In this document: positions 18,299-35,948 of the stretch, piece by piece
Layout of the letters: each line of letters starts with the position of its first letter
Position numbering within the stretch: position 1 is the first letter of the stretch
DNA from: an uncultured Alphaproteobacteria bacterium
Lineage (GTDB): Bacteria; Pseudomonadota; Alphaproteobacteria; HIMB59
NCBI GenBank assembly: GCA_902515765.1
Contig: CABXVZ010000010.1
Span: 1 to 38,282, forward strand
Direction: 5' to 3'
DNA length: 38,282 bases
Notes under the pieces: model-generated
What the model saw: the letters and a program-made list of their open reading frames with translations, nothing else
Told to the model about the DNA's origin: nothing
Database searches by the model: none
Made by a program: the position numbers and the translations under genes

Positions 18299-19288
18299 TT
18301 ATATTTCATTTATTCGATTCAATAGTGCATCAGAGATTTCAATATCTTTATTTTTATTTTTTTGAAAACTTGATTGGCGTTTAGCTCCCGGAAGACGGGC
18401 ACCCTCTTGGTTTGTAATTGAGTCAATTAATAATTTGAGAGTATTTTCAAAATTAGAATTAAATTTTAGAGGATTAATTGCTATAAAAAATTGACCTGTG
18501 CTAGGTGGGCCTCCATCTTCTCCTGCAAAAGAGGAAGCTTGTGTTCCTAAATTTCCTCCAGCAATACAGGAAGTTAAAATTTCAACCATTAAACCGGTTC
18601 CAAAACCTTTATATCCACCACTAGGCGCCATTGTTCCTTTTAAGGCTTCTTTTGCATCAGTAGTAGTATTTCCTTGGGTATCAAACGCCCAACCTTCTGG
18701 AATAGATTCACCAGACTTCGCTCGAACTGATATTTCACTTTTAGCAACGACACTTGCAGATTGATCGATAATTATAGATGCGCTTCCCTTATAAGGCACT
18801 GCAATTGAAAAAGGATTTGTTCCAACTACCGCCTTTACTCCCCCAAGAGGTGCAATAGATGCTGGAGCGTTAGTGAAACCTAATCCCACAAATCCTTTTT
18901 CTGCAATTCTTTTAGTGTGAAATCCTAAAATGCCACAATTATATGAATTGTATACTGACATGGATGCAATCCCTTCTTTAGAGCACATTTCAAAAATCTC
19001 AGGAAAACCTTTATTTATAGCACTATGAGCAAAACCGTTATCTGCATCAACTTTAAGTGATGAATTGGAGATCTTTTTAAAAGATGAGGCCGCATCTCCT
19101 TTTATTTTTCCTATTTTCAAATGATTACAATAAATAGGCAAATAATGGAAACCGTGACTTTTTATCCCACAAAATTCTGCGTCCAGTATCCCCTCAATAA
19201 TTCCATAAGTATTCTCTTCGGAACAGCCTGATTTTATAAGCTTTTCTTTAGCTAGATCAAAAGCAGCTAATTTATCAAAGCTAGGCAT
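18299..19288 (-). CDS. Ldh_2-family NAD(P)-dependent oxidoreductase (malate/lactate dehydrogenase type)
   Basis: A 329-residue protein of the Ldh_2 family, unrelated in fold to classical lactate dehydrogenase. It shows KSHGFHYLPIY near 43-53 with the family His, NCGILGFHTKRIAEKGF near 111-127, the nucleotide-binding TNAPASIAPLGG near 134-145 followed by GTNPFSIAVP, and GGYKGFGTGLMVEIL near 219-233. Members reduce or oxidise 2-oxo acids, and some (DpkA type) reduce cyclic imines such as delta1-pyrroline-2-carboxylate. It is divergent from proX across 154 bases, which suggests shared control and a role with the island to the right. The actual substrate is unresolved. Confidence 0.85.
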   Translation of the reverse strand: MPSFDKLAAFDLAKEKLIKSGCSEENTYGIIEGILDAEFCGIKSHGFHYLPIYCNHLKIGKIKGDAASSFKKISNSSLKVDADNGFAHSAINKGFPEIFEMCSKEGIASMSVYNSYNCGILGFHTKRIAEKGFVGLGFTNAPASIAPLGGVKAVVGTNPFSIAVPYKGSASIIIDQSASVVAKSEISVRAKSGESIPEGWAFDTQGNTTTDAKEALKGTMAPSGGYKGFGTGLMVEILTSCIAGGNLGTQASSFAGEDGGPPSTGQFFIAINPLKFNSNFENTLKLLIDSITNQEGARLPGAKRQSSFQKNKNKDIEISDALLNRINEI

Positions 19289-19391: not shown

Positions 19392-19429
19392 TGATATTCT
19401 ATAGACTAATAAATATTTATTAATTATAT

Positions 19430-19434
19430 GGAGG
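19430..19434 (+). promoter_or_regulatory. Strong Shine-Dalgarno GGAGG deciding the proX start
   Basis: GGAGG at 19430-19434 stands eight bases before the ATG at 19443. It overlaps the earlier in-frame ATG at 19428, which is therefore not the true start. Strong ribosome sites are rare in this window, so this points to high expression of the binding protein. Confidence 0.75.
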
Positions 19435-19442
19435 ATAAATAT

Positions 19443-20450
19443 ATGACATATTTAAGAAACGTATTCTTCACAGCAATACTTGCTTTAGGTTTTAGTTCTT
19501 TAACAACTACTGCCTCAGCATGTTCTCTAACTGTTGCTAATATGAACTGGGCATCTGCAAACTTAATGGCAGAAGTTGATAAGTTTATTTTAGAAAATGG
19601 ATTTGGATGTGAAGTTGAACTAGTTGAAGGCGCAACTATGCCTACATTTACAAGTATGGCAGAAAAAGGTGAGCCAGACGTAGCTCCTGAATTTTGGGCC
19701 AATGCTGCTTTAGTGCCTTTACAAGCTGCTGAAGGAGAAGGAACAATAGTTACTCTTAACAAAGCCCCTATTACAGGCCTTGGTGAGGGATGGTGGATTC
19801 CACCTGCAACTCTTGAAGCTCATCCTGAGTTAACATCTGCTGAAGCTATTTTAGCAAGACCAGACTTATTCCCACATCCAGAAGATCCATCAAAAGGTGC
19901 CTTCGTAGGTTGTCCAGCTGGTTGGGGTTGTCAGTTAATCAATGCTCAACAATATATTGGTTGGGATATGGAAGCAAAAGGATGGCTTTTAGTTGACCCT
20001 GGTTCTGCTGCTGGTCTTGATGGTTCAATGGCTAAAGCTGTTGAGCGTGGAGAGAACTGGTTTGGTTATTATTGGTCACCAACTTCTTTGATAGGAAAAT
20101 ATGGAATGGTTCCTGTTGATATGGGAGATTGGGGTGGAGATGATAACTGGCACAACTGTGTAGTGAAGCCTGAGCAAGATTGTGGTGATCCAAAAGCTAC
20201 TTCTTGGATTAAATCAGAAGTCTACACAATTGCCTCAGCAAACTTTACAGAGCAAGCTGGTCAAGATGGTATATTTTATCTCAGAGAAAGAACATGGCCT
20301 GGACCTGTTATGAACTCAATGTTAGTTTACATGGCAGAAAATCAAGCTGAGGGTGCTGATGCAGCAGTTGAATTTCTTCAATCTCATGAAGACGTTTGGA
20401 AAAACTGGGTTGGCGCAGATATGAGAATAAAAATTAAGAACGCCCTTTAA
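19443..20450 (+). CDS. proX: Glycine betaine/proline-type ABC transporter substrate-binding protein
   Basis: A 335-residue periplasmic binding protein of the OpuAC/ProX family. It has a signal peptide (MTYLRNVFFTAILALGFSSLTTTASA, cleavage probably after TASA before CSLTVANMNW). The mature part is rich in Trp and acidic residues, with motifs EFWANAALVP, GEGWWIPP, NWFGYYWSPTSL and MGDWGGDDNWHNC. Tryptophans of this kind bind quaternary ammonium or sulfonium groups through cation-pi contacts. Ligands in the family include glycine betaine, proline betaine, choline and DMSP, and specificity cannot be read by eye. A strong ribosome site precedes it and a hairpin separates it from proW, consistent with more binding protein than permease. 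Confidence 0.9.
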   Translation: MTYLRNVFFTAILALGFSSLTTTASACSLTVANMNWASANLMAEVDKFILENGFGCEVELVEGATMPTFTSMAEKGEPDVAPEFWANAALVPLQAAEGEGTIVTLNKAPITGLGEGWWIPPATLEAHPELTSAEAILARPDLFPHPEDPSKGAFVGCPAGWGCQLINAQQYIGWDMEAKGWLLVDPGSAAGLDGSMAKAVERGENWFGYYWSPTSLIGKYGMVPVDMGDWGGDDNWHNCVVKPEQDCGDPKATSWIKSEVYTIASANFTEQAGQDGIFYLRERTWPGPVMNSMLVYMAENQAEGADAAVEFLQSHEDVWKNWVGADMRIKIKNAL

Positions 20451-20530: not shown

Positions 20531-21418
20531 ATGAGTTTTTTCAGTGAAATCCCAACTATGGGTAGAGAGTCTCTTCGAGACTTTAAAAAAGGTATAGACT
20601 TAAACTTTAAAGAATTTTCAAGAAACTATGGTGATGGCATAGAGGGATTTTTTGATCCCCTATTAATGTTTCTGGTTTGGCTAGAAAAATTATTAGTTAA
20701 TTCACCTTGGCCTTTAGTAATATTAGTTTTAGCGGGTTTAGCTTGGATCGGATCTAGAAATTGGAAGCTTGTTGCGGGAACAATAGTTTGTTTTATGCTG
20801 ATAGGTTATTTTGGTATGTGGAAAGATACGATGTCGACAATAGCAATTATTTCTGTTGCCACATTGGTGTGTATTAGTATTGGTATCCCTCTTGGTATTT
20901 TAATGTCAAGATCTCGAAAACTTGAGGCTGGGATTACTCCTATTTTAGATGTCATGCAAACTGTACCTAGCTTTGTTTATCTTATTCCTATTATTATGCT
21001 TTTAGGTATAGGAAAAGTTCCTGGATTAATAGCCGTTTGTATTTACGCAGTTCCCCCTATAGTTCGATTAACAAATTTAGGTATCAGAGAAGTTGACAAA
21101 GAATGTCTTGAGGCTGTTGATTCTTTTGGAGCAACTAGCTGGCAGAGATTAACCAGAGTTCAGATGCCATTAGCTTTGCCTACAATATTTGCAGGGGTAA
21201 ACCAAACAATTATGATGGCACTTGCAATGGTTGTAATAGCTTCAATGATTGGTGTTAGAGGTTTAGGAGTTCCGGTTTTAAGAGCTGTATCAAATCAGTA
21301 TTTAGCACTTGGTATGTTAAATGGCTTAGCAATCGTAGCACTAGCAATTATTTTTGATCGAGTCTCTCAGCAATATGGTAAAAGACTTCAGAAGCATAGA
21401 GAGGGAAGAAATTTATGA
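20531..21418 (+). CDS. proW: Glycine betaine/proline-type ABC transporter permease
   Basis: A 295-residue inner-membrane permease of the ProW/OpuAB family. An N-terminal amphipathic region of about 55 residues precedes helices near 60-95. The transport domain follows with IPLGILMSRSRKLE and MQTVPSFVYLIPIIMLLGIG. The cytoplasmic EAA loop is ECLEAVDSFGATSWQRLTRVQMPLALPTIFAGVNQ, which docks on the ATPase. It forms the membrane pore for the osmolyte captured by ProX. Its stop overlaps the proV start by four bases (ATGA), which couples their translation. Confidence 0.92.
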   Translation: MSFFSEIPTMGRESLRDFKKGIDLNFKEFSRNYGDGIEGFFDPLLMFLVWLEKLLVNSPWPLVILVLAGLAWIGSRNWKLVAGTIVCFMLIGYFGMWKDTMSTIAIISVATLVCISIGIPLGILMSRSRKLEAGITPILDVMQTVPSFVYLIPIIMLLGIGKVPGLIAVCIYAVPPIVRLTNLGIREVDKECLEAVDSFGATSWQRLTRVQMPLALPTIFAGVNQTIMMALAMVVIASMIGVRGLGVPVLRAVSNQYLALGMLNGLAIVALAIIFDRVSQQYGKRLQKHREGRNL

Positions 21419-22437
21419 GTGATACAAAAATAAAAATTGATTCTCTCTATAAAATTTTTGGAAATAAGCCTAAAGAGGCCCTTGAATATGTAAAGCAAGG
21501 AGTTGGAAAAGATGAGCTACTTGAAAAACACAATCATGTATTGGGCCTAAGTGATATCAACATTGATATAGAGGACAAATCTATTCAGGTTATTATGGGT
21601 TTATCTGGTTCTGGTAAATCGACTCTAATAAGACATATCAATAGACTCATCGAGCCAACAGCAGGAAATGTTTTAGTTGATGGAAGTGATGTTCTTCAAT
21701 ACGACGAGGCTACACTTAGAGATTTTAGAAGAACTAGAACTGCAATGGTATTTCAGAGATTTGCATTGATGCCCCATATGACCATTTTAAAAAATGTCAG
21801 TTTGGGTTTAGAGCTTCAGGGTAAAAAAGATGATGAAATTTTAAACAGTGCTATGAAGTGGATTGAAAAGGTAGGTCTGAACGGCTATGAAGATAGATAC
21901 CCTCAACACTTATCAGGAGGAATGCAACAAAGAGTTGGTCTCGCTAGAGCCTTGACAAATGATACTGATATCCTTCTGATGGATGAAGCATTTAGTGCTT
22001 TAGATCCTCTTATTAGAAAAGATATGCAGGACATTTTGTTAAATTTACAAGCAGAACTTCATAAGACTGTTGTATTTATTACACACGACCTTGATGAAGC
22101 CTTAAAAATTGGAGATAGAATTGCAATTCTTAAAGATGGAATTATGGATCAAGAGGGTTTACCCGTAGATATATTGCTAAGCCCCAAAACTGAGTATGTT
22201 TCAAACTTTGTTGAAGATGTTAATAGATCCAGAGTGCTCAAGGCAAAGCACATTATGGAAAAGGCAAATGGCTCTGATCTCTCTAAGGGAATGCCTGTTG
22301 ATGAAAATGATTTTATAGAATCTTTTATTGATAGAGTTGTTGCAGAAAAGCCTGAATTAATTGTAGTCCAAGATTCTGATAAAAAAAATATTGGTAGCTT
22401 AACTTCAAAAAGATTATCTGAAGTTTTAAAAAAATAG
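21415..22437 (+). CDS. proV: Glycine betaine/proline-type ABC transporter ATP-binding protein
   Basis: A 340-residue ABC ATPase of the ProV/OpuAA family. It has Walker A GLSGSGKST (near 63-71), a Q-loop in MVFQRFALMPHMT, signature LSGGMQQRVGLARAL, Walker B ILLMDEAFSALDP and the switch His in VFITHDLDEAL. It carries the family's N-terminal extension before the nucleotide domain. The C-terminus (about 270-340) is shorter than E. coli ProV (400), with room for at most one degenerate CBS-like half, so osmotic sensing by a full CBS pair is doubtful. It drives osmolyte uptake with ProX and ProW. The aldehyde dehydrogenase gene begins nine bases later. Confidence 0.92.
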   Translation: MSDTKIKIDSLYKIFGNKPKEALEYVKQGVGKDELLEKHNHVLGLSDINIDIEDKSIQVIMGLSGSGKSTLIRHINRLIEPTAGNVLVDGSDVLQYDEATLRDFRRTRTAMVFQRFALMPHMTILKNVSLGLELQGKKDDEILNSAMKWIEKVGLNGYEDRYPQHLSGGMQQRVGLARALTNDTDILLMDEAFSALDPLIRKDMQDILLNLQAELHKTVVFITHDLDEALKIGDRIAILKDGIMDQEGLPVDILLSPKTEYVSNFVEDVNRSRVLKAKHIMEKANGSDLSKGMPVDENDFIESFIDRVVAEKPELIVVQDSDKKNIGSLTSKRLSEVLKK

Positions 22438-22446
22438 TAGCTTTCT

Positions 22447-23898
22447 ATGTTTGGAAAGAAATCTAATTATATCAATAATGCCTGGGTTGAAGGAGAGGGG
22501 GAAATTAATAATATTAACCCTTCTGATACCAATGATCTTATTGATACCTACTCTAATGCTTCTTCAAGTCAATTAAATGATGCTGTTAGTTCAGCTAAAG
22601 TAGCTCAGAAAAAATGGGAAAAAGTTGGGATAGAAAAAAGAGCTAATATCTTAAATGATATTGGTAGTGAGATTATTAAGCAGTCGAAGGAAATAGGAAC
22701 TCTGCTATCTAGGGAAGAAGGGAAAACTCTTCCTGAAGGTATTGGAGAAGTAGTAAGATCTGGTCAACAGTTTCAATATTATGCGGCAAGTGCTTTAAGA
22801 CAATTTGGGGAAAATATCGCCTCTACGAGAGAAGGTGTTTCAGTTGAAATGACAAGAGAGCCTGTTGGTGTTTGTGGTATTATTTCTCCCTGGAATTTTC
22901 CAATTGCGATAGCCGCTTGGAAAGCGGCACCCGCTATGGCTTTTGGAAATGCAGTGGTTTTAAAACCTGCTTCTCAAACCCCAGCTAGTGCGATTGCCCT
23001 TACAAAAATTATAAGTGATCAAAAAGATATACCTGAGGGTTTATTCAATTTAGTTTTAGGTGGTGGGGGTACTATTGGTCATCAAATTTCAGGACATCCA
23101 GATATAGATGCTATTAGTTTTACTGGCTCAGTTAGTGTTGGGCAGACTATTTACATGGAGGCTGCAAAAACTATGAAAAAAATGCAGTTAGAGATGGGAT
23201 CTAAAAATCCGTTACTAGTTATGGATGATGCTGATTTAGATATTGCTGTTGCCTGTGCTACCAATGGGGCTTACGGAGGAACAGGTCAAAAATGTACCGC
23301 TTCATCAAGATTGATTGTCCATGAAAAAGTTTATAAAGATTTTATTCAAAGATTAATTAAAAGTATTAGCGCCCTGAAAGTTGGTCATGCTTTAAAAGAG
23401 AGATCGCAAATGGGTCCCGTTTCTAGTGAAACCCAATTACATTCAAATCTTGATTATGTTAAGAAGGGTAAAAGTGAGGCTGAACTTGCCTTTGGTGGAA
23501 ATCCTATTAGCTTGGATACGCCAGGCTATTATATGGAGCCTACTCTCTTTATTGATGGGGATAATAAATCAACAATCAATCAAGAAGAGATGTTTGGTCC
23601 AATCGCTTGCGTTATTCCAGTAAAATCATACGAAGAAGGACTTGAGGTAGCAAACGATACCATATTTGGCCTTTCGAGTGGAATAATTACCCAATCTCTC
23701 AGTAAGGCTGCTGATTTTAAGAAGAATATTAAAACGGGTGTGACCACTGTTAATCTTCCTACTGCTGGATTAGACTACCATGTACCCTTCGGAGGAAGAA
23801 AAGCCTCTTCTTTTGGTCCAAGGGAGCAAGGAACTTACGCACATGAATTCTTTACTCATGTAAAGACTACCTATGTAAGCCCTGGCAAGATTAATTGA
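22447..23898 (+). CDS. Aldehyde dehydrogenase, alpha-ketoglutaric-semialdehyde dehydrogenase-like
   Basis: A 483-residue NAD(P)-dependent aldehyde dehydrogenase. Catalytic residues are intact: N150 in ISPWNFP, K173 in VLKPASQTP, E249 in LEMGSKNP and C283 in GTGQKCTASSR. The C-terminal PFGGRKASSFGPREQGTYAHEF followed by FFTHVKTTYV is typical of the 2,5-dioxovalerate (alpha-ketoglutaric semialdehyde) dehydrogenase group. That activity ends pathways for hydroxyproline and some sugar acids by giving 2-oxoglutarate. A betaine- or butyraldehyde-type substrate is the alternative. It lies nine bases after proV, and its stop overlaps the next start by four bases, so it belongs to the uptake operon. 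Confidence 0.85.
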   Translation: MFGKKSNYINNAWVEGEGEINNINPSDTNDLIDTYSNASSSQLNDAVSSAKVAQKKWEKVGIEKRANILNDIGSEIIKQSKEIGTLLSREEGKTLPEGIGEVVRSGQQFQYYAASALRQFGENIASTREGVSVEMTREPVGVCGIISPWNFPIAIAAWKAAPAMAFGNAVVLKPASQTPASAIALTKIISDQKDIPEGLFNLVLGGGGTIGHQISGHPDIDAISFTGSVSVGQTIYMEAAKTMKKMQLEMGSKNPLLVMDDADLDIAVACATNGAYGGTGQKCTASSRLIVHEKVYKDFIQRLIKSISALKVGHALKERSQMGPVSSETQLHSNLDYVKKGKSEAELAFGGNPISLDTPGYYMEPTLFIDGDNKSTINQEEMFGPIACVIPVKSYEEGLEVANDTIFGLSSGIITQSLSKAADFKKNIKTGVTTVNLPTAGLDYHVPFGGRKASSFGPREQGTYAHEFFTHVKTTYVSPGKIN

Positions 23899-24863
23899 GC
23901 TATAAAATAGACAATTTACAATATTGTAATTGGTCTAAGGAAATCTTTGAAATTAACAATAAAGCAAACCTGGATGCTGTTCACGCTACCATCTGCTATC
24001 ACGAAGATTTTGATGAATTAAAAATCAATATTGAAAAATGGGAAGAATATTTTAGAGATTATTCCTCTTTGATATTTCAAGGATTTAATTCTCGAGATAT
24101 AGAAAAAGCTAAACAAGAAAATAAAACAGCAATATTTTTTGGGTTACAAAATTGCTCTCCTATTGAAGACAATATCGAATATGTTGAGAGATTAAAAAAT
24201 TTGGGAGTTCTTTTCATGCAACTCACATACAACAATCAATCTCTATTGGCCACTGGGTGTTATGAAAAACGAGATACTGGTATAACGAGAATGGGAAGAG
24301 AAGTTATCAAAGAAATGAATCGAGTTAAGATGATCATTGATATGTCTCACTCAGCAGAATTTTCTACTCTTGAAGCTATAGAAATTTCTGAAAAACCTAT
24401 TGTTATCAGTCATGCCAATCCTCTTTTTTGGCACAAAGGACTCCGAAACAAATCAGATGTCGTTTTAAAAGCACTAAACGATAGTGGAGGTATGATAGGT
24501 TTCTCTCTATATCCTCATCATCTTAAAAACTCTTCAGAATGCACACTTATTTCTTTTTGTGAAATGATAGCAGAGACTACTAAAAGAATTTCAATAAAAC
24601 AGATTGGTATTGGATCAGACTTGTGTATTCGCCACCCTGACAGTATTGTAGAGTGGATGCGCAATGGAACTTGGACAAAAACTAAGGATTTTGGTGAGGG
24701 CAATGCAAGTAATGCTGGCTTTCCGCCCCAACCAAATTGGTTTGAGGATGCAAGAGGTTTCATAAATTTAGAAAAAGGTCTTAAAGATGTAGGCTTTAGT
24801 GAAGAAGAGACACACGACATACTTGGGAATAATTGGTACAATTTTTACCAAAAATTTGATTAA
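23895..24863 (+). CDS. Peptidase M19 (membrane dipeptidase)-like protein with altered metal site
   Basis: A 322-residue cytosolic TIM-barrel protein of the M19 dipeptidase family, starting at TTG 23895 because no other in-frame start exists before residue 108. Retained features are IIDMSHSAE (H152), VISHANPL (H173) and IGIGSDL near the C-terminal end of the barrel. In classical M19 enzymes the first ligands are H-x-D and a bridging Glu. Here the matching places read VHAT (H30, T32) and FGLQNCSPIED (Q85), so two ligands are replaced. This suggests a different reaction, perhaps hydrolysis of a non-peptide bond. The TTG overlaps the dehydrogenase stop, and its own stop touches the next ATG. Confidence 0.8.
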   Translation: MSYKIDNLQYCNWSKEIFEINNKANLDAVHATICYHEDFDELKINIEKWEEYFRDYSSLIFQGFNSRDIEKAKQENKTAIFFGLQNCSPIEDNIEYVERLKNLGVLFMQLTYNNQSLLATGCYEKRDTGITRMGREVIKEMNRVKMIIDMSHSAEFSTLEAIEISEKPIVISHANPLFWHKGLRNKSDVVLKALNDSGGMIGFSLYPHHLKNSSECTLISFCEMIAETTKRISIKQIGIGSDLCIRHPDSIVEWMRNGTWTKTKDFGEGNASNAGFPPQPNWFEDARGFINLEKGLKDVGFSEEETHDILGNNWYNFYQKFD

Positions 24864-26518
24864 TGAAAGTAGACTTAAGAAAACCAGAATTTGTGATGAA
24901 ACTTGATCGTTTGGGATCTTTTCATCAATCTAAACTCTCTTTTTTGAGAAGTTTTATAAGAGAATTTAAAGATTGGGATTTTCAAACAAAGGAATTTAAC
25001 TTAGATAATGAGGGATATGGTTATGCAATCTACACTGTCCAAAATAGACATAAACAATATTCCCTAATTTGTTTTTCAAATTATCTAGACGACAGTGATC
25101 GATCAGATCGTGTGATTGCAACTAAATGGGATGCATCATTTGTATTATTTGATGGTGTTCCCTTAAAAAAGGATATTGAAAGACTTCAAAGTAATGTCCC
25201 ACTCCAAGAACAAGGACGAGTGAGCCAAAAAGAATTATGTTTATCTAGAGCTAACAAATCTGTTAGGATCTTCGAGCATGTTGTCAATAGTCTATCTGAA
25301 GGAAAGCAACCTGATACAAAACTACTTTATGATGTGGGCTATCTATACCGCACCACAGCTGTTTATGGGGCAGGTAAGTTTGGGTTAGCCGATCGAATAA
25401 AAATTCAAAATAGAGACGAAATAAAAGGACCTTTTAGATTAGAGATGATGTTGGTATACCTTGCTCGTCAATTTACTTTTGACATTGTAAATCACGTGGC
25501 CCACCATAGGTGCCCTGAAAAAGCAATAACATTGCATGATGACATAGCTAGGAATTTAGGAATTGGAAATTCAACAGGATTGGGAATGGCCCCCTTCATC
25601 GTTAATCATCCTGCCCTTCTCAACCAGTGGATTATAGCTAAAGAGTCAGCGCTCAAAGCTATTAGATCTATAGCTTTTATAAACGAAATTGAAAAAAATT
25701 CTTTTCAAAATTATCTAACACTCATCCAAGAAAATATTAAATATTGGAAAACAGATAGCGAATATCAAATCAAAAAGAATAATCAACTTCTCAAAGATCT
25801 AGAAAATTTTCAAAAATATTTTAATAATCTATCTTTAGGTGAGTATTTTTGGAATAGTGTTTATCAATGGGTAGAAAAAAATACGCAAGCAGAGTGTTGT
25901 GAATTTATTGTTTCTTTAATGATGGAAGTTTATCCAGAAATTGTTGAGCCTTTAAGCTACGAGATGTCTATAAATGAAGAGGAATATTTTGATATTGACA
26001 CCAGTCGACCAATTTATGAGATCTCTCAATTGATTGAAAATCAATATACGTGGCTGCTTAATATAAATTTTGACCAAAAAGATAATATTTTTAATTTTTG
26101 GTATTATTCTAAGAATAAACAAGAACCCAGATTGTCTGATCGATTTAGTGAAGAAGGTGCTGATCTTGAACTTCCTTTAGCAATAGCAAGAGACATACAA
26201 AATCTTTATCAAGAGTTAAAATTAATGGATCTTAAAGATGATTTGGGTGCTTATTTAATAAAAAGTCAACAATATCGTCATATTTTAAGACGTGTTTTAA
26301 TATGTGAAAAGCTTCCCTACTCAGAGATACAAGATAATACTATTTCAAAATCTGTTATTCCAGTCGATATGCTTCGATTAAAATTATCTTTTTTTGGAGC
26401 AACTAGGTTTGACCCACGATCTGATCGTTGGGTAAGAATAACCATGTACCAAGGCGCTCCCTTAATGAGAGAAATTAACCAATCTAACGATAGTTGGTCT
26501 TATAAAAAAATAGCCTAA
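24863..26518 (+). CDS. Uncharacterised 551-residue protein in osmolyte island
   Basis: I do not recognise a named family. The protein is soluble, without a signal peptide or clear membrane helix. The most ordered-looking part lies at about 165-265: LLYDVGYLYRTTAVYGAGKFG, MMLVYLARQFTFDIVNHVAHHRCPEKA, then DIARNLGIGNSTGLGMAPFIVNHPALLNQW. The His cluster and Gly-rich turn look like an active site or cofactor pocket. The C-terminus has ATRFDPRSDRWVRITMYQGAP, which also looks conserved. One-base overlaps (TAATG) with the genes on both sides tie it tightly to the M19-like and DUF3726-like genes, suggesting a joint complex or successive steps. Confidence 0.75.
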   Translation: MKVDLRKPEFVMKLDRLGSFHQSKLSFLRSFIREFKDWDFQTKEFNLDNEGYGYAIYTVQNRHKQYSLICFSNYLDDSDRSDRVIATKWDASFVLFDGVPLKKDIERLQSNVPLQEQGRVSQKELCLSRANKSVRIFEHVVNSLSEGKQPDTKLLYDVGYLYRTTAVYGAGKFGLADRIKIQNRDEIKGPFRLEMMLVYLARQFTFDIVNHVAHHRCPEKAITLHDDIARNLGIGNSTGLGMAPFIVNHPALLNQWIIAKESALKAIRSIAFINEIEKNSFQNYLTLIQENIKYWKTDSEYQIKKNNQLLKDLENFQKYFNNLSLGEYFWNSVYQWVEKNTQAECCEFIVSLMMEVYPEIVEPLSYEMSINEEEYFDIDTSRPIYEISQLIENQYTWLLNINFDQKDNIFNFWYYSKNKQEPRLSDRFSEEGADLELPLAIARDIQNLYQELKLMDLKDDLGAYLIKSQQYRHILRRVLICEKLPYSEIQDNTISKSVIPVDMLRLKLSFFGATRFDPRSDRWVRITMYQGAPLMREINQSNDSWSYKKIA

Positions 26519-27114
26519 TGCAATCTCTATATGAAATTGAGACTACCGTTTTAAGATCATCGCGAACACAAGGTTTGAGTTGGGGTGTTTCTGAAGAAGT
26601 AGGTAAGGCAATTAGGGTTTTAGAGCAGTCGAATTTGGCAGGGCTAGAGAGTTTTAAAAGAATTATTGATTTAGGTTTTGATAATTTAAATAAGCTCCTT
26701 GAAGTTAATCAAAAAAATACTAACAATCTATGCCCAATCCATTTTGGATTATTTTTTCTTGATCAATCTCACAAAAATAAACTTTATCAAACCCTTCATT
26801 TTGAGAGTTTAGTAGAACCGTTAGTTTCTTTACCATTCCTAATAAAAGCTGCCAAAAAAAATCTCATTTATTTTCAACTGGATTCTAAAGAATTGGTTTT
26901 AAATATTTCACCAGGGAGTCTTTTTTCCATAGATAAAAATCAAATACCTCAAATAATATCAAAGTTCTCTTTAACATTGACGACCCAAAGGGAAATCCAG
27001 TTTTCTCCAAAGACATGGGACGACCTTTATAAACTCTCTTTAGAAACCTTTGTTGATGAGTCTGAAGAGAAAAGAATTTCCGGTGCTGGCGCTGGATTGA
27101 CAGATAACGACTAA
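26518..27114 (+). CDS. Probable DUF3726 protein
   Basis: A 198-residue soluble protein of unknown function. The N-terminus SLYEIETTVLRSSRTQGLSWGVSEEVGKAIRVLE and the C-terminal end RISGAGAGLTDND match the pattern I associate with DUF3726, a family seen in Alphaproteobacteria. Its ATG overlaps the stop of the 551-residue gene by one base. The region between, with SPGSLFSI near 140, shows no known catalytic motif. Constant pairing with the larger protein would suggest a two-subunit enzyme or a maturation partner. That idea is inference. Confidence 0.65.
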   Translation: MQSLYEIETTVLRSSRTQGLSWGVSEEVGKAIRVLEQSNLAGLESFKRIIDLGFDNLNKLLEVNQKNTNNLCPIHFGLFFLDQSHKNKLYQTLHFESLVEPLVSLPFLIKAAKKNLIYFQLDSKELVLNISPGSLFSIDKNQIPQIISKFSLTLTTQREIQFSPKTWDDLYKLSLETFVDESEEKRISGAGAGLTDND

Positions 27115-27140
27115 TTTAACATTTCCAAGTATTTTGTACT

Positions 27141-27168
27141 TTGCTTTATTATCAGAATGCATTATACA
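27141..27168 (+). promoter_or_regulatory. Candidate internal promoter for dmdA
   Basis: TTGCTT (27141-27146) and TATACA (27163-27168) are separated by 16 bases, a reasonable sigma-70 arrangement. Transcription would start near 27175, just before the ATG at 27182. This lies in the 67-base gap after the DUF3726-like gene, the first real gap in the operon, so dmdA could be expressed separately. Confidence 0.4.
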
Positions 27169-27181
27169 TATGCGAAATTTA

Positions 27182-28288
27182 ATGAATTCATTTATTGCAA
27201 AAAGTGCCAGACTAAGATCTACACCCTTTACTGAGCGTATTGAAGCTTACGGTGTGGAGTCTTACACAGTCTACAATCATATGCTGCTTCCAGCTTCGTT
27301 CAAAGGAGTTGAAGAAGACTACCGTCACCTCAAAGAAAATGTTCAGTTATGGGATGTGTCGGTGGAAAGACAGGTCCAAATCAAAGGTCCTGATGCAGAT
27401 AAACTCACTCAGCTAATCACATGCAGAGACCTATCTAAAGCTAAAGATTATATATGTTATTATGCACCGATTGTAGATGATAAAGGCAAAATTTTAAATG
27501 ATCCTATAATTATGAAAGTTGCACCAGATACTTGGTGGATTTCAATTTCTGATACTGATGTTGTTTTATATGCAAAAGGGATTGCTATAGGAAAGAATTT
27601 AGATGTAGAGGTTATAGAGCCAAATGTTAACCCTCTAGCTGTTCAAGGACCTAAGTCCTTTGAATTAATGAGAAGAGTTTTTGGAGAAGAAATTTTAAAA
27701 ATGAAGTTTTTTCATTTTAAAAGATATCCCTTTGCTGGACATGATTTTTTAATAGCAAGATCAGGTTGGTCAAAACAGGGTGGATTTGAAATCTATGTTG
27801 ATGATGATGTAAAAGGACTTGAGCTCTATGATGCTTTAACCTTAGAGGGGAAAGATTTAGATGTTAGACCCGGATGCCCAAATTTAATTGAAAGAATAGA
27901 AGGTGGTTTATTATCCTATGGAAACGATATGGATATTAACGATACACCTTTAGAATGTGGTTTGGATGCCTTTGTCTCTTTTAATCCTGATATTGAATAC
28001 CTAGGTAAATCTATTTTGGAAAAACAACATGCTGAAGGAGTAAATCGCTCCTTAGTCGGTCTTAAACTCCAAATGGATAAAATATCAATAACTAAGTTTA
28101 TCCCTATTTTTCAAGGATCTAAAATGATTGGAGAACTTAGGTCAGCCTGTTTTAGCCCAAAATTTCAATGTTGTCTGGGTATCGCCATGGTCGATAAATC
28201 AGAACAAGATACTTCTCAACCTTTGCAAATTTCAATTGAGGGCAATCAAATCACTGCTGAAATAACTTCGCTCCCTTTCACAAAATAG
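27182..28288 (+). CDS. dmdA: Dimethylsulfoniopropionate demethylase
   Basis: A 368-residue GcvT-family enzyme that transfers a methyl group from DMSP to tetrahydrofolate, giving methylmercaptopropionate. Key runs match the SAR11 DmdA I remember (369 residues): RSTPFTERIE at the N-terminus, YTVYNHMLLPASFK, WDVSVERQVQIKG, TCRDLSKAK, RSGWSKQGGFEIYV and PGCPNLIERIEGGLLSYG. The start is chosen at ATG 27182 because of length and the promoter position. ATG 27170 is possible, and a TTG at 27134 lies upstream of the candidate -10 box. It follows the DUF3726-like gene and precedes an MFS transporter. Activity on another methylated osmolyte cannot be excluded. Confidence 0.88.
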   Translation: MNSFIAKSARLRSTPFTERIEAYGVESYTVYNHMLLPASFKGVEEDYRHLKENVQLWDVSVERQVQIKGPDADKLTQLITCRDLSKAKDYICYYAPIVDDKGKILNDPIIMKVAPDTWWISISDTDVVLYAKGIAIGKNLDVEVIEPNVNPLAVQGPKSFELMRRVFGEEILKMKFFHFKRYPFAGHDFLIARSGWSKQGGFEIYVDDDVKGLELYDALTLEGKDLDVRPGCPNLIERIEGGLLSYGNDMDINDTPLECGLDAFVSFNPDIEYLGKSILEKQHAEGVNRSLVGLKLQMDKISITKFIPIFQGSKMIGELRSACFSPKFQCCLGIAMVDKSEQDTSQPLQISIEGNQITAEITSLPFTK

Positions 28289-28326: not shown

Positions 28327-29592
28327 ATGTTTGGAACGATAGTAAGCTCTTGGGCACTTTTTACTGGCTTTGGTCTAATTATGCTAGCTCATGCGCTACA
28401 AGGAACTCTTCTAAATGTTAATGCTGTATTTTTTAATTTTTCAGACTTTGAAATCGGTTATGTTTTTTCTGGATATTTCATAGGATATTTATTCAGTTCA
28501 ATTCAATGTCCAAAACTAATCAAAAACGTTGGTCATATTAGAGTCTTTGCAGCGTTTGCATCTTTAGGATCTATAGCGATTTTGCTTCATTGGATTGTAA
28601 TTAATCCAATCGCCTGGTTAATTTTTCGTATGATAACAGGTTTTTCCTTTGCAGCTATTTATATTGTTTGTGAAAGTTGGTTAAATGATCGAGCTGATAA
28701 TAAATCTCGTGGACAGCTCATTGGCTTCTATATGATTGTATTGTATTTTTCTACTAGCGCTGGAGGTATGCTCGTGAATCTCCGAGCAACAACAGATGCT
28801 CATTTATTCATACTCACCTCTTTACTAATCTCTTTAGCTCTTGTTCCTATACTTCTCACAAAAAAACCTGCTCCAGATTTTTCAACTCCAAAATTTTTAT
28901 CCTTAAAGGAATTATATTCAAAATCTCCCATGGCTTTTGTGGGCTCTTTTTCCATCGGAATGGTTTATAGTGCTCTCTTTGGTTTGATGGGTGTGTTTGG
29001 CGCCAAAATTGGATTGAGCATCTTCCAAATTTCAATTTTAGTTTTTGTAAATATGTTTGTGGGTGCTATTTTTCAATATCCTGTTGGAAAAATTTCAGAT
29101 AAATATGATAGAAGAACAATTCTTTTGTCGTTAAACCTTATCGCGATAGCTTCTTTAATTTTTATATATTTATTAGGTTCTTTATCTTTTTATCTTCTAT
29201 TAGTGTTTATTGGAATTCACTCTGCTGTCTCTCTTCCCTACTACGCTGTTGTTATTTCCCATATGAATGATTTCTTAGAAAAGGATGAAATAGTTTCTGG
29301 CAGTTCTACTCTCACTCTAGTTAATGCCCTAGGGATGGTCATGGGTCCTATGCTTGCTTCAGGTTTTATGGCATATTTTGGTGCCTATGGTTATTTTTTG
29401 TATATGATAGTTATTTATTGTTTAGTAGCCCCCTATAATTTCTTTAGAATACGAGTTGGAAGGACAAGTAATATTTATGAAGAAAATACTCCTTCCATGA
29501 TCGTGCCTAGAACAGCATCTCCAGTGGGAATGCAGTTGGCAAGTGATCAAATCATAACTAAAATAGAAGACGATGAAGAAAGTAGTTCATGA
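28327..29592 (+). CDS. Major facilitator superfamily transporter (YcaD-like)
   Basis: A 421-residue, twelve-helix secondary transporter. The first half has FEIGYVFSGYFIGYLFSS and the WLNDRADNKSRGQLIGFYM loop between helices 4 and 5. The second half has PVGKISDKYDRRTILL, a good MFS A-motif. A C-terminal acidic tail (SDQIITKIEDDEESSS) is cytoplasmic. It resembles the YcaD-like MFS group, whose substrates are unclear. Its place after dmdA and its overlap of four bases with the RidA gene suggest uptake of a substrate, or export of a product, of the same pathway. Confidence 0.82.
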   Translation: MFGTIVSSWALFTGFGLIMLAHALQGTLLNVNAVFFNFSDFEIGYVFSGYFIGYLFSSIQCPKLIKNVGHIRVFAAFASLGSIAILLHWIVINPIAWLIFRMITGFSFAAIYIVCESWLNDRADNKSRGQLIGFYMIVLYFSTSAGGMLVNLRATTDAHLFILTSLLISLALVPILLTKKPAPDFSTPKFLSLKELYSKSPMAFVGSFSIGMVYSALFGLMGVFGAKIGLSIFQISILVFVNMFVGAIFQYPVGKISDKYDRRTILLSLNLIAIASLIFIYLLGSLSFYLLLVFIGIHSAVSLPYYAVVISHMNDFLEKDEIVSGSSTLTLVNALGMVMGPMLASGFMAYFGAYGYFLYMIVIYCLVAPYNFFRIRVGRTSNIYEENTPSMIVPRTASPVGMQLASDQIITKIEDDEESSS

Positions 29593-30050
29593 ATTTTGAA
29601 AATCAATTAGAGCAACTAGGCTTAATTCTTCCCAGTCCTGCCAAACCCGCTGGTAGCTATAAACCCTGTTTAATTGTTGATAATATTGCCTATATTTCGG
29701 GGCAAGGACCTTTATTAGAAGATGGGAGTTTTGCTAAAGGGGTAATAGGAAAAGACATAGATATCGAAACTGGCCAAAAACATGCTCAAAAATGTGGGCT
29801 TGCTATTTTATCAGCACTCAAGAATGAAATAGGCGATCTCAATAAAGTAGATCAACTTGTAAAAATCACGGGTTTTGTTAATTGTACGAGTGATTTTACT
29901 CAACAGCCTCTAGTAATCAATGGTTGCTCAGATCTTATGAAGGAAGTTTTTGGAGATAAGGGCGTCCACGCCCGTGCCGCTGTAGGTGTCAATTCGCTTC
30001 CCCTTGGTTTCACAGTTGAAATTGAGGCTATCTTTAAAATTCGATTATAA
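29589..30050 (+). CDS. RidA/YjgF-family protein
   Basis: A 153-residue member of the RidA family, whose archetype hydrolyses reactive 2-iminoacids and enamines to 2-oxo acids plus ammonia. It has the opening GLILPSPAKPAGSYKPC, the strand YISGQGPLLEDG, and HARAAVGVNSLPLGFTVEIEAIFKI at the C-terminus, where the Arg of HARAAVG corresponds to the conserved ligand-binding arginine. It is of the slightly longer type. It overlaps the MFS stop by four bases. A RidA next to imine-forming dehydrogenases would fit a pathway passing through an imino acid. Confidence 0.85.
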   Translation: MNFENQLEQLGLILPSPAKPAGSYKPCLIVDNIAYISGQGPLLEDGSFAKGVIGKDIDIETGQKHAQKCGLAILSALKNEIGDLNKVDQLVKITGFVNCTSDFTQQPLVINGCSDLMKEVFGDKGVHARAAVGVNSLPLGFTVEIEAIFKIRL

Positions 30051-30119: not shown

Positions 30120-31226
30120 ATGGAGGTACAATTTCAAAATAACTCACTCTTAGTGAGTCATCAAAATAAGACTTTTCAGTTACATCCAATTTGGTTAAGA
30201 GAACGTCTCCCAGGTGAAGATTTTTTTGATATCGATACTAATCAACGACTTTATGAGCCTTCTTCAATAAATTTAGATTTGCAAATTTCTCATGCCGAAT
30301 TATTAGATGCCCTTCTCAAAGTTGAATTTAATGATGGTATCAAAGGAACATTTAATATTGATGAACTTCTAAGAGAAATGGACAGTGACAAAAATAAACG
30401 AGGCCCTCTTCCTGAAAGAATTTTATGGAACTCAGAATTACAAAATTTTCCTGAGGCTCAATTTGAGGAGGAGATGGTAGAAAAAGAGTCAATGTATCAC
30501 TTACTTATGAATTTTTATAAATATGGATTTGTGATTATTAAAAATGTTCCAACTGAAGATAAATATCTTTTAAAATTTGTAAGTTCGATTGGACCAGTGA
30601 AAGTTACTAATTTTGGAGAGTACTTTGATGTAAAGTCAAAACCCAATCCAAATGACCTTGCCTATAAACCTATTGCTCTTCCCCCTCACACAGATAACCC
30701 TTATCGCAAACCTGCAGCTCCTGGTATCCAATTTTTACATTGCCTTAAAAATGAAGTGTCAGGAGGATTTTCCACTTTAGTAGATGGATTTGCTGTTGCA
30801 GAATATTTGAGAAATAAACACACAGAAGCATTTGAGTCTCTTACAACCACAAATCTTCGATATCAGTTTCAAGATAAAGATATAGTTTTGGAGAACTGGG
30901 GAGAGTTAATTGAGTTGGATAAAGAGGGAGACTATAAACAAGTCCGATATAGCACAAGAGTAGACTATGTACCGCCATTAGAACCTGAAAAATTAAAAAA
31001 TTTTTATCAGGCTAGAAAACTCCTTAGTGAATTATACTGCTCAGCAGAATTTGAATTAAAATTTAAACTGCAACCAGGGGATATTATGATGTTTGATAAT
31101 CATCGTTTATTACATGGTCGAACTGCCTATGATGCCAATGAAGGAATGCGACACCTACAAGGTTGTTACTTAGAGTTTGATGCTACCGACGGAAAGTTAC
31201 GTCACTTAGCTCGAAAGTTTCAGTAG
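30120..31226 (+). CDS. Gamma-butyrobetaine-hydroxylase-like 2-oxoglutarate dioxygenase (TauD superfamily)
   Basis: A 368-residue Fe(II)/2-oxoglutarate oxygenase. The facial triad is H190 and D192 in LPPHTDNPYR plus H332 in NHRLLHGRTAYD, with the 2-oxoglutarate arginine probably R344 in GMRHLQGCYLEFD. The N-terminal domain begins LHPIWLRERLP like gamma-butyrobetaine and trimethyllysine hydroxylases, but lacks the usual zinc-binding Cys cluster after it. Relatives hydroxylate trimethylammonium compounds or cleave sulfonates. GGGGG just upstream at 30108-30112 may serve as the ribosome site. An 11-base gap leads to the enolase-superfamily gene. The substrate is unknown and is likely a methylated ammonium or sulfonium acid. 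Confidence 0.85.
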   Translation: MEVQFQNNSLLVSHQNKTFQLHPIWLRERLPGEDFFDIDTNQRLYEPSSINLDLQISHAELLDALLKVEFNDGIKGTFNIDELLREMDSDKNKRGPLPERILWNSELQNFPEAQFEEEMVEKESMYHLLMNFYKYGFVIIKNVPTEDKYLLKFVSSIGPVKVTNFGEYFDVKSKPNPNDLAYKPIALPPHTDNPYRKPAAPGIQFLHCLKNEVSGGFSTLVDGFAVAEYLRNKHTEAFESLTTTNLRYQFQDKDIVLENWGELIELDKEGDYKQVRYSTRVDYVPPLEPEKLKNFYQARKLLSELYCSAEFELKFKLQPGDIMMFDNHRLLHGRTAYDANEGMRHLQGCYLEFDATDGKLRHLARKFQ

Positions 31227-31237
31227 TTTTTTTTAAG

Positions 31238-32386
31238 ATGGCTGATCTTACTATTGTATCAGCAGAAGTATTTGCATGTAAATCTGATGCACCTCAAATT
31301 ATCTGGGCAAAAGATATGTCCCCGATGTTTGAGGCAAACATTATAGTCAAACTTCAAACTCAGTCTGGCATAGAGGCTGTCGGGGGTGTCTTGATACCTA
31401 CCGAACATCACTATGATTTTTCTGTAGTTCAAGCCTGCAGAAATTTATTCCCAGAAATAATAGGCAAAAGTCTTGAGGATAGAATTTCTGTGACTGAGTT
31501 TATGCTAACAAGATGTGTTCCTCTTAATCCTCTGGCTGTTTCATCAATTGATATCGCAATGTGGGATGGATATGCTAAGCATCATCAAAAACCTCTTTGT
31601 GAAGTTCTTGGAAAGAAAAGAGATAAAATTAAATCTTATGCTTCAACTCCACTTTTTCATTCCATTGATGAATACATCGATTTTGTCAAAGATCTTCAAT
31701 CTCAAAATTTTCATACCATCAAATTTCATACATGGTGTGAATTAGAATTTGACTTGGAGATGATTAGTCAAGTATGCCCTCAATTTCCTGATATCCAATT
31801 CATGATCGATTGTGAACAGCGATACCTTCGAGATGATGCTCTCCGCTTAGGTCGAAAGCTAGATGAACTTAAATTTGTTTGGATGGAAGCACCCTTTGAT
31901 GATTATGATTGGGACAGTTACCAATGGCTTCGTGAAAAAATTGCAACCCCTGTTCTTGGTGCAGGAAACTCTCTCCTCAATCCTTTCCAAATTGACCAAT
32001 CCTTAAAAGAGAATATTTTTCATCATGCCCGTGTCGACACCACCTACGTGGGAGGAATTACACAAGCCATCAAAATTATGAAAATAGCCAAAAAATATAA
32101 TAAAAACACGGAATTACAGTCATGGTCTTATCCATTGGGTCAAGCGGCTAATCTTCATATTATGCTAAGTCATGAAAATTGTAATTATTTTGAACAAGTC
32201 GTTCCTTACAAAAACCATGAACATGCAGCAAAAAGCTTTATTCGAACGGACAATCTTGGATATGTAGGGCCTAATCCTGAACACGGTCTTGGAATAGAAG
32301 TTGATTGGGACATCGTCAGCCGGGATTGGTACTCTCATATTCGACTCGATGAAAAAGGGCTTAAATCCCAAATTCGCTCAATCTAG
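31238..32386 (+). CDS. Enolase-superfamily (mandelate racemase/muconate lactonising-like) protein with divergent active site
   Basis: A 382-residue protein with the capping domain plus barrel layout of the superfamily: VSSIDIAMWDGYAKHHQKPLCEVLG near 101-125 is characteristic. Active-site positions are unusual. The second-strand motif is K162-F-H164 in place of Lys-x-Lys. Metal ligands read D191 (MIDCEQ), E217 (WMEAP) and N244 in GAGNS, where Asp or Glu is normal. The seventh-strand region is RVDTTYVGGITQ (D267), and the last barrel strand has W296 in LQSWSYP, where His or Lys is often found. It probably isomerises or dehydrates a carboxylate, but it may have shifted chemistry. It is linked to the oxygenase by an 11-base gap. 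Confidence 0.83.
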   Translation: MADLTIVSAEVFACKSDAPQIIWAKDMSPMFEANIIVKLQTQSGIEAVGGVLIPTEHHYDFSVVQACRNLFPEIIGKSLEDRISVTEFMLTRCVPLNPLAVSSIDIAMWDGYAKHHQKPLCEVLGKKRDKIKSYASTPLFHSIDEYIDFVKDLQSQNFHTIKFHTWCELEFDLEMISQVCPQFPDIQFMIDCEQRYLRDDALRLGRKLDELKFVWMEAPFDDYDWDSYQWLREKIATPVLGAGNSLLNPFQIDQSLKENIFHHARVDTTYVGGITQAIKIMKIAKKYNKNTELQSWSYPLGQAANLHIMLSHENCNYFEQVVPYKNHEHAAKSFIRTDNLGYVGPNPEHGLGIEVDWDIVSRDWYSHIRLDEKGLKSQIRSI

Positions 32387-34808: not shown

Positions 34809-35948
34809 TTATGAGATAGCTATAGCTTTTTTAGGATCAAAGAAAGGCTTTTCAACAACAACTCCTTGTTGCTGACCAAAGTCAGTGTGTATCTCAACCA
34901 ACTGCCCTATTTCAATGAATTGAATACCTAACATAGCCAGAGCAATATTTTTTTTAAGTCTCGGGGAATAAACAGCAGAGGTAACTTTTCCCATAAATTT
35001 TCCATTTATGGATATTGGCCAGAAATTAGTATTGGGTCCCTTCAGAGAATCACATACTATTTCTAACCCAACTTGTTTTCTTTTAATTCCGTCTTGTTTA
35101 ATTTGGCGTAACGCTTCCTTACCGATAAAATTGATTTCATTATCAAGCGACACTAACCGATCCAAACCTAATTCAAAGGGATTAGTGTGGATATCTGCGT
35201 CTGCATGATAAGACAGCATTCCACCCTCAATTCGTCTAATACTAGAGGTATGCCCAGGTTGTAATCCGTATTCCTTACCTGCTGTCATTATGGCTTCCCA
35301 TAATCTATCACCCTGTGAACCATCCCTTAGAAATAATTCATAACCTAATTCGCTAGACCAACCTGTGCGAGATACCACTAATGGTATTCCCTCTAATTCA
35401 ATTTCTCTAAGCCAATAATATTTTAAATCCTTAATATTTTCTCCAAAGAGCTTTGCCATTATGTCACCTGATTTTGGTCCTTGAAGCTGAAGGGGAGAGA
35501 CATCTGGTTCTTGAATATTGACATTAAGACCTGAGTGAACAGCGACACCCTGAGCCCATAACAAAATATCGCTATCAGATAAGGATAACCAAAAATGATT
35601 TTCTGCTAATCGAAGAAGGACAGGATCATTAAGAATACCTCCTTTTTCATTAGTGATTAAAACATATTTACATTGACCCACTTCTAATTTTGATAGATCT
35701 CTGGGCGTTAGGAGTTGAATAAATTTATAGGCATCGGGACCAGTAATTTCTACCTGTCTTTCCACTGCTACATCGCAAAGAATTGCATCGTTGACTAAAT
35801 TCCAGAAGTTTTGCTCGGGATCCCCAAAATCTCTAGGAATATACATATGGTTATATACGGAAAAACCTGTTGCTCCCCATCGAACTGTTGCATCAAAGTA
35901 AGGTGATTTTCGAATTTGAGTCCCAAAACCAAAGTTTTTAGATGACAT
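34809..35948 (-). CDS. GcvT/DmdA-family aminomethyltransferase-like protein
   Basis: A 379-residue folate-dependent methyl- or aminomethyltransferase-family protein. It is clearly related to the DmdA at 27182 (YNHMYIPRDF, VAVERQVEITGPDAYKF, LTPRDLSKLE, LSDSDILLWAQG, RRIEGGMLSYHAD). It differs at places that mark DmdA: TGWSSELGYELFLRDGS for SGWSKQGGFEIYV, and GHTSSIRRIEGG for GCPNLIERIEGG. It therefore belongs to a sister group and probably demethylates another methylated amine or sulfonium compound. A good ribosome site GAGGAG precedes the start. It stands alone between the channel gene and the glnK-amtB promoter. Confidence 0.85.
   Translation of the reverse strand: MSSKNFGFGTQIRKSPYFDATVRWGATGFSVYNHMYIPRDFGDPEQNFWNLVNDAILCDVAVERQVEITGPDAYKFIQLLTPRDLSKLEVGQCKYVLITNEKGGILNDPVLLRLAENHFWLSLSDSDILLWAQGVAVHSGLNVNIQEPDVSPLQLQGPKSGDIMAKLFGENIKDLKYYWLREIELEGIPLVVSRTGWSSELGYELFLRDGSQGDRLWEAIMTAGKEYGLQPGHTSSIRRIEGGMLSYHADADIHTNPFELGLDRLVSLDNEINFIGKEALRQIKQDGIKRKQVGLEIVCDSLKGPNTNFWPISINGKFMGKVTSAVYSPRLKKNIALAMLGIQFIEIGQLVEIHTDFGQQQGVVVEKPFFDPKKAIAIS

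Follow-up and report, generated by a model that had tools for sequence, protein, structure and literature searches.

A constant pair of uncharacterized proteins, P551 and DUF3726, in an alphaproteobacterial locus with a likely link to the breakdown of N-methylated betaines

The locus studied here raises the question of what two uncharacterized proteins do together when their genes overlap by a single base. It lies in a stretch of 38,282 nucleotides, hereafter the window (contig CABXVZ010000010.1 of GenBank assembly GCA_902515765.1), from an uncultured alphaproteobacterium of the HIMB59 clade, and the two genes encode a 551-residue protein of an unnamed family, here called P551, and a 198-residue partner of the DUF3726 family. 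An earlier reading made from the window alone, the sequence-only reading, had suggested that they are a two-component enzyme at the heart of a genomic island. Our preferred answer is that P551 and DUF3726 form an obligate complex, joined by an M19-family hydrolase as the regular third member of a pathway for the catabolism of N-methylated betaines, with homarine the likeliest substrate of the canonical operon; to this reading as a whole we assign a probability of about 45%. The features of the pair are listed first, with the predicted local distance difference test (pLDDT) and predicted template modeling (pTM) scores of the models.

24863..26518, + strand: P551, 551 aa, unnamed family (open reading frame; predicted model with pLDDT 85.2 and pTM 0.89)
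25487..25525, + strand: stretch VNHVAHHRCPEKA of P551, residues 209-221, described as His-rich (no conserved site)
25559..25612, + strand: Gly-rich block of P551, residues 233-250 (conserved across the alignment)
26518..27114, + strand: DUF3726 partner, 198 aa (PF12525 match; model with pLDDT 87.2)
27082..27111, + strand: constant C-terminal tail GAGAGLTDND of the partner, residues 189-198 (predicted disordered, best conserved part)

The open reading frames and the one-base TAATG overlaps claimed in the sequence-only reading were verified, with TTAATG at 24863 joining the M19 gene to P551 and CTAATG at 26518 joining P551 to DUF3726. The same reading had proposed a co-occurrence profile, which was run on a class sample of 385 alphaproteobacterial genomes and a phylum sample of 398 genomes, some genomes being in both. 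P551 was found in 53 and DUF3726 in 43 genomes of the class sample, and all 43 DUF3726 matches directly followed P551 in the same orientation, with 8-118 bases between the model matches. In the phylum sample (P551 in 29 genomes, DUF3726 in 27) each of the 29 DUF3726 matches adjoined P551 on its downstream side, so that DUF3726 was never found without P551. A simple sequence search of 45 related public loci identified the DUF3726 gene in 43; the other two loci end in or right after P551.

All ten class genomes with P551 and no Pfam-level DUF3726 were inspected. Four show a weak or clear DUF3726 profile match at the expected place (L090, L091, L092, L097), one encodes a natural fusion of P551 and its partner, whose C-terminal part is DUF3726-like as judged by eye (L087), and two have a diverged partner recognized by eye (L088, L089), placed after the M19 gene in L088; the last three loci (L095, L096, L098) are interrupted by contig edges or a broken gene. 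The two phylum genomes without a Pfam-level match still carry a partner, identified by eye in L160 and by profile in L161. The inseparability of the pair and the fusion in L087 agree with the earlier proposal of a two-component system, and we consider it very probable that the two proteins make up a single obligate complex. That this complex is an enzyme is suggested by residue conservation in P551 and by the neighboring genes.

The pair ranges over Alphaproteobacteria, Gammaproteobacteria and one haloarchaeon. In the closest public loci, a HIMB59 locus among them, P551 is 77-81% identical to the window protein. Purifying selection seems to act on the two genes: in five pairs, with synonymous sites near saturation, the proportions of nonsynonymous (pN) and synonymous (pS) differences are 0.13-0.16 versus 0.65-0.73 for P551 and 0.20-0.30 versus 0.65-0.81 for DUF3726. 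Two genomes (G154, loci L094/L100; G252, loci L093/L099) carry two P551-DUF3726 pairs each, one canonical and one more diverged, and M19 is not beside the diverged pair of L093. The P551 gene is broken or split in L096 and L040, which points either to gene loss in part of the lineages or to errors of assembly.

In keeping with the sequence-only reading, P551 fits no known family: searches of Pfam, NCBIfam, PHROGs and the PDB sequences matched nothing, and a Pfam scan of 35 homologs returned only six weak matches, each confined to one member. Structural searches with the model as a whole chain gave no Foldseek match to solved chains with E < 0.001 (best 1.2) and a best Z of 4.7 over 105 residues in a VIA search; the viral folds yielded no match. 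P551 as a relative of the Ldh_2 family (malate/L-lactate dehydrogenases) was rejected (hhalign E 0.69).

The earlier reading had seen a possible catalytic or cofactor site in a His-rich and a Gly-rich region of P551, of which only the latter proved conserved. In an alignment of 47 proteins, including 12 members just 23-44% identical to the window protein, G233, G235, N236, G241 and P250 of the Gly-rich block are invariant, but no histidine of the VNHVAHHRCPEKA stretch is invariant or near-invariant. H211 is invariant in the 35 closer proteins only, and H249, kept in 45 of 47, is the sole histidine left in that region of the wider set. A catalytic His-rich site at VNHVAHHRCPEKA was therefore rejected, its conservation being lost in the wider family, and this element of the proposed two-component enzyme is unsupported. 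The invariant positions number 130 among the 35 proteins and 24 among the 47, the latter including W38, R83, D90, Q149, Y160, R163, R202, N236, W413, Y414, S416 and R423.

The assignment of the smaller protein to DUF3726 was borne out (46.8 bits against PF12525, cutoff 22.1), and its model points to an origin that the earlier reading had not considered. The model superposes on Ldh_2 enzymes, the top 15 solved entries reaching Z 8.1-10.4 with 152-179 residues aligned before the score drops to 4.8, and no good-scoring match was found outside this type-2 malate/lactate dehydrogenase family. About 270 residues of the Ldh_2 chain are spanned by about 159 residues of the model, so that a middle part is missing, which we take to be where the NAD-binding domain of Ldh_2 enzymes sits; DUF3726 proteins are 191-247 aa long, Ldh_2 proteins 328-405 aa. 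The SHG motif is present in 18/18 Ldh_2 rows of the alignment and in 1/30 DUF3726 rows, there at a shifted place as judged by eye. At the level of profiles, the window protein has no match to PF02615 (Ldh_2) and the direct comparison of the two families is weak (probability 15%, E 0.0017, 42 columns). The kinship is drawn from the fold match together with diverged intermediate sequences: the archaeal partner reaches 7.4e-9 and 35.6 bits against PF02615, just below the cutoff of 38.8, and the partners of a diverged branch described below match the Ldh_2 profile with a probability of 53% (E 1.4e-4), and six of them, aligned, match DUF3726 over most of its length with an hhalign probability of 97%. 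We infer that DUF3726 is a dehydrogenase remnant which has lost the NAD-binding part and the catalytic Ser-His and serves as a scaffold for P551.

The C-terminus GAGAGLTDND, said to look constant from the window protein, proved to be so: of the 98 DUF3726 proteins encoded in the retrieved loci, with close relatives counted, 80 finish with GAG-x(1-5)-D-x-D. Disorder is predicted for the last ten residues, whose mean top-residue frequency is 0.89, compared with 0.32 at residues 56-175. A tail that is disordered yet nearly invariant would be expected to fold onto a partner, most simply P551, and its conservation suggests that it docks into that protein. A different tail, P-x-S/T-x-x-SR, is common to five of the six diverged partners.

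The genes around the pair indicate the kind of pathway in which it may act. In the window these are:

18299..19288, - strand: Ldh_2 (malate/L-lactate dehydrogenase family) oxidoreductase, a module member
19428..20450, + strand: ProX-like substrate-binding protein (OpuAC) of a glycine-betaine-type importer
20531..21418, + strand: ProW-like permease (named from sequence reading and synteny)
21415..22437, + strand: ProV-like ATP-binding protein (named from sequence reading and synteny)
22447..23898, + strand: aldehyde dehydrogenase, ALDH (best NCBIfam scores below cutoff)
23895..24863, + strand: M19-family hydrolase (Gln replaces the bridging metal-ligand Glu; one-base overlap with P551)
29589..30050, + strand: Rid-family protein (imine/enamine hydrolase type)

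The ALDH and M19 genes also overlap, via ATTGA, M19 having its TTG start codon at 23895. This gene order recurs in other HIMB59-clade loci, so that the island invoked by the sequence-only reading is not needed. Recurrence was scored, with profiles built from the loci, in 62 P551 stretches and in 17 controls taken from other parts of some of the same genomes; 13 of the 62 stretches with short flanks were left out of the count, leaving 49 with at least 6 kb on each side. For a clustering of the loci, eight near-identical HIMB59 loci were removed beforehand. The partner gene was present in 46/49 neighborhoods, M19 in 45/49 (Fisher p 2e-12), ALDH in 21/49 (p 0.0006), Ldh_2 in 20/49 (p 0.001) and a BCCT or ProW importer in 15/49 (p 0.007), each with 0/17 in the controls. 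The p-values are a guide only, since the genomes are related and the profiles derive from such loci. The unit thus extends, beyond what had been noted earlier, to a near-constant M19 hydrolase, ALDH, Ldh and a betaine importer.

Annotated genomes show the same set in operon form. In Phaeobacter inhibens 2.10 and DSM 17395 and in Ruegeria TM1040 the operon comprises LysR, ALDH, a membrane dipeptidase, BCCT, P551 (annotated as hypothetical protein) and DUF3726, with an Ldh oxidoreductase annotated in P. inhibens 2.10 and Ruegeria TM1040, and it adjoins sarcosine-oxidase-type genes. Aminobacter NyZ550 has an equivalent operon with an importer of the glycine betaine ABC type; across these records the importer genes lie within the operon or adjacent to it. 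A Vibrio locus and one similar to it combine a Rid-like gene (by eye), ALDH, M19, BCCT, P551 and the partner, and no Ldh match was found in the examined part of either. The haloarchaeon Natrinema versiforme encodes P551, an Ldh_2-like partner and BCCT, with ALDH nearby. Rid genes recur near other P551 loci. In Rhizobiaceae-group loci (L031-L036, L040) a fatty-acid-desaturase-family protein and a sarcosine-oxidase-like FAD protein are encoded near the pair, and in some a dimethylglycine-dehydrogenase-like protein.

The module enzymes themselves are informative. For the Ldh (18 aligned) the best PDB match by far is 1wtj, a Delta1-piperideine-2-carboxylate reductase (2.2e-93; next 1.7e-62), so that by sequence the operon enzyme is closest to the piperideine-2-carboxylate / N-methyl-amino-acid reductase DpkA. 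DpkA is described as natively reducing piperideine-2-carboxylate and as joining methylamine and keto acids into N-methyl amino acids (PMC6110843). The window M19 protein scores 227.3 bits against PF01244, and the nearest solved relative of the module M19 proteins is the amidohydrolase 2i5g (5.5e-52), which is PA5396 of the Pseudomonas dimethylglycine cluster. Position 85 is Gln in 49/49 module M19 proteins, and there is no HxD among their conserved N-terminal positions; in renal dipeptidase a Glu at this place is the bridging metal ligand and HxD is N-terminal. The window ALDH has its best NCBIfam scores, under the cutoffs, with 2,5-dioxovalerate and alpha-ketoglutaric semialdehyde dehydrogenases.

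Taken together, the betaine importers, the reductase (of the N-methyl imine or six-ring 2-carboxylate kind), the amidohydrolase, the dehydrogenase of semialdehyde type and Rid are consistent with a route that degrades an N-methylated cyclic betaine. N-methylated betaines are likely the substrate class, a further step beyond the sequence-only reading, and we hold a betaine-type substrate to be probable; for homarine itself the chances are about even. Homarine is N-methylpyridinium-2-carboxylate, with six carbons plus the N-methyl group, and N-methylglutamate has five plus the N-methyl, so that ring carbon 6 must leave on the way from one to the other; judged by such carbon counts, homarine is the best fit. 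In the proposed scheme the importer would take up an N-methylated betaine, homarine being the first choice, and the first step, an attack on the ring, would take place in an active site of P551, with DUF3726 as its scaffold. By carbon counting, cleavage between C5 and C6 of homarine would give an N-acyl (formyl) semialdehyde, whose aldehyde ALDH would oxidize and whose N-acyl bond M19 would hydrolyze; the DpkA-like Ldh would then act on the N-methyl imine, reducing it to N-methylglutamate. In loci that show no Ldh, such as that of Vibrio, Rid would instead hydrolyze the imine to 2-oxoglutarate and methylamine. N-methylglutamate dehydrogenase would complete the route, and this enzyme (Mgd) is reported to take part in homarine catabolism (PMC13390433). 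The ring-opening enzymes of trigonelline catabolism, TgnA/TgnB, have been argued to be unlikely to open homarine (PMC8269262), so another enzyme is needed, and P551-DUF3726 is proposed for the first attack on the ring; this assignment of the ring step is tentative, its odds being somewhat short of even. Doubtful is the picture in which P551 is an enzyme of new fold that opens the ring of N-methylated heteroaromatic betaines with no recognizable cofactor site, in obligate complex with a dead dehydrogenase whose tail completes or caps its active site, and acts on homarine in the canonical operon and on related compounds such as trigonelline in Sinorhizobium-type clusters, in bacteria and a haloarchaeon.

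Beyond the pair the window encodes two DmdA/GcvT-like proteins (27134-28288 and 34809-35948). The first scores 512.6 bits against the DMSP (dimethylsulfoniopropionate) demethylase model, cutoff 410 bits, and may be a true DMSP demethylase. Between DUF3726 and this DmdA-like gene, nine HIMB59-type loci (L001-L003, L005, L006, L009, L010, L014, L015) have an insert of ~1.4-1.6 kb; of the two scanned, that of L010 encodes a Cons_hypoth698 protein and that of L003 a TPR protein, neither of which the window has. A dioxygenase gene (30120-31226), nearest TmpA (2-trimethylaminoethylphosphonate dioxygenase) and gamma-butyrobetaine dioxygenase but under both cutoffs, is preceded by the Rid gene and followed by an enolase-superfamily gene (31238-32386), and could belong to a separate betaine route. 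The tRNA and Rfam scans of the window gave no matches.

Several observations weigh against the scheme. Homarine as the substrate is argued from carbon logic, from the Ldh relative and the importers, and from the reported operon name homABCDER. P551 has no conserved histidine cluster or known cofactor motif that would back an oxygenase. ALDH, Ldh and the importer are each absent from more than half of the 49 neighborhoods, the Ldh gene of the window is divergently transcribed, and the DmdA-like, TmpA-like and enolase-superfamily genes of the window have no part in the scheme. Taking the sarcosine-oxidase-type alpha subunit as a stand-in for N-methylglutamate dehydrogenase, we found it in 9/9 genomes with P551, but also in 7/15 without, and it is not enriched near P551 (3/62 stretches versus 1/17 controls); such genes do not discriminate and were dropped as support. 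Reports on Ruegeria pomeroyi are mixed, one describing homarine as a less effective growth substrate than trigonelline (PMC8269262), the other fast homarine drawdown (PMC12817926).

The alternative that survives best, and which we regard as a serious if lesser possibility, keeps the complex and the kind of pathway and changes the substrate to a different betaine, either N-methylated or cyclic (hydroxyproline betaine, pipecolate betaine, trigonelline or an open-chain compound), or to lineage-specific ones. It draws on the TmpA/gamma-butyrobetaine-hydroxylase-like and enolase-superfamily genes of the window, on the further action of DpkA in lysine and proline routes, as judged from reference titles (PMC6110843), and on diverged P551 units in other settings. 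Plasmids of Sinorhizobium meliloti (L150), Ensifer (L154) and Alloyangia (L152) encode P551 relatives 23-31% identical to the canonical ones, in the order IclR, P551 relative, partner, M19, PotD-type ABC importer, with aminotransferase, succinate-semialdehyde dehydrogenase (SSADH) and Rid genes nearby in Sinorhizobium/Ensifer, and gabT (GABA transaminase) and SSADH in Alloyangia. On Mesorhizobium ciceri pMc1192 (L155) the pair is enclosed by a cluster of ABC importer genes that also includes a carboxymuconolactone decarboxylase gene and one of the 'amino acid synthesis family', and no dipeptidase is annotated in that stretch. The diverged branch probably handles another compound than the canonical operon; trigonelline for the Sinorhizobium-type cluster is a guess, and a literature search for that link found none. 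For the canonical set itself, recurrence from HIMB59 to Vibrio argues for one common substrate there, and the six-ring 2-carboxylate reductase as best match of its Ldh likewise speaks against this alternative.

That the pair is not the first enzyme but assists M19 or a methyl-transfer system, as a maturation factor, chaperone or sensor, appears unlikely. In favor of it, DUF3726 has neither the NAD part nor, as judged by sequence, the Ser-His pair, no other neighbor is as constant as M19, and a Vibrio dipeptidase gene beside dgcAB likewise has an uncharacterized companion (PMC12093977). The counts of invariant P551 positions speak against such a role, many of these residues being charged or aromatic and resembling an active or ligand site, as does the pair without an M19 match within the stretch fetched from three gammaproteobacterial loci (L019, L022, L024). 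Least probable by far is an ordinary dehydrogenase, in which DUF3726 would be nothing more than a short form of Ldh, and P551 a neighbor with no connection to it: the Ldh_2 fold would suit it, but the NAD-binding part is missing, SHG is absent at the place where all Ldh_2 rows have it, and DUF3726 never occurs without P551.

If the reading of an obligate complex in betaine catabolism is correct, this widespread pair fills a gap in the route by which a major N-methylated osmolyte of the sea is degraded, and both families gain a functional frame. The pair would also show how a dehydrogenase fold was stripped and given a new role, that of a subunit equipped with a tail for docking, and P551 and DUF3726 could serve as markers to track this flow of carbon and nitrogen in ocean genomes. 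A homarine catabolism pathway was reportedly published in 2026 (Nat Microbiol 11:1531), with an operon said to be named homABCDER. The canonical unit, counted as five enzymes or subunits plus LysR, would equal that operon in gene number, and part of the homarine reading may already be in print. Our literature searches on homarine yielded just the citation of that 2026 report, and those on DUF3726 and on PA5396/PA5397/dgcA found no paper.

Three known systems invite comparison. With trigonelline TgnA/TgnB the proposed reaction shares an N-methylpyridinium carboxylate substrate and a ring-opening first step, but TgnA/TgnB is described as an oxygenase system (PMC8269262) and P551 matches no oxygenase family. 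The glycine betaine/dimethylglycine cluster (dgcAB) of Pseudomonas and Vibrio resembles the present unit in its M19 protein, the module M19 being closest to 2i5g, and a predicted dipeptidase sits there beside an uncharacterized protein (PMC12093977); its companions are that hypothetical protein and DgcAB, whereas here they are P551 and DUF3726. The Ldh_2 enzymes (YiaK, AllD, DpkA), finally, share the fold of DUF3726, which superposes on 15 solved entries and is bridged to them by the diverged partners. DUF3726 differs in lacking about 110 residues including the NAD-binding part, in having no SHG at that place, and in adding a new constant tail.

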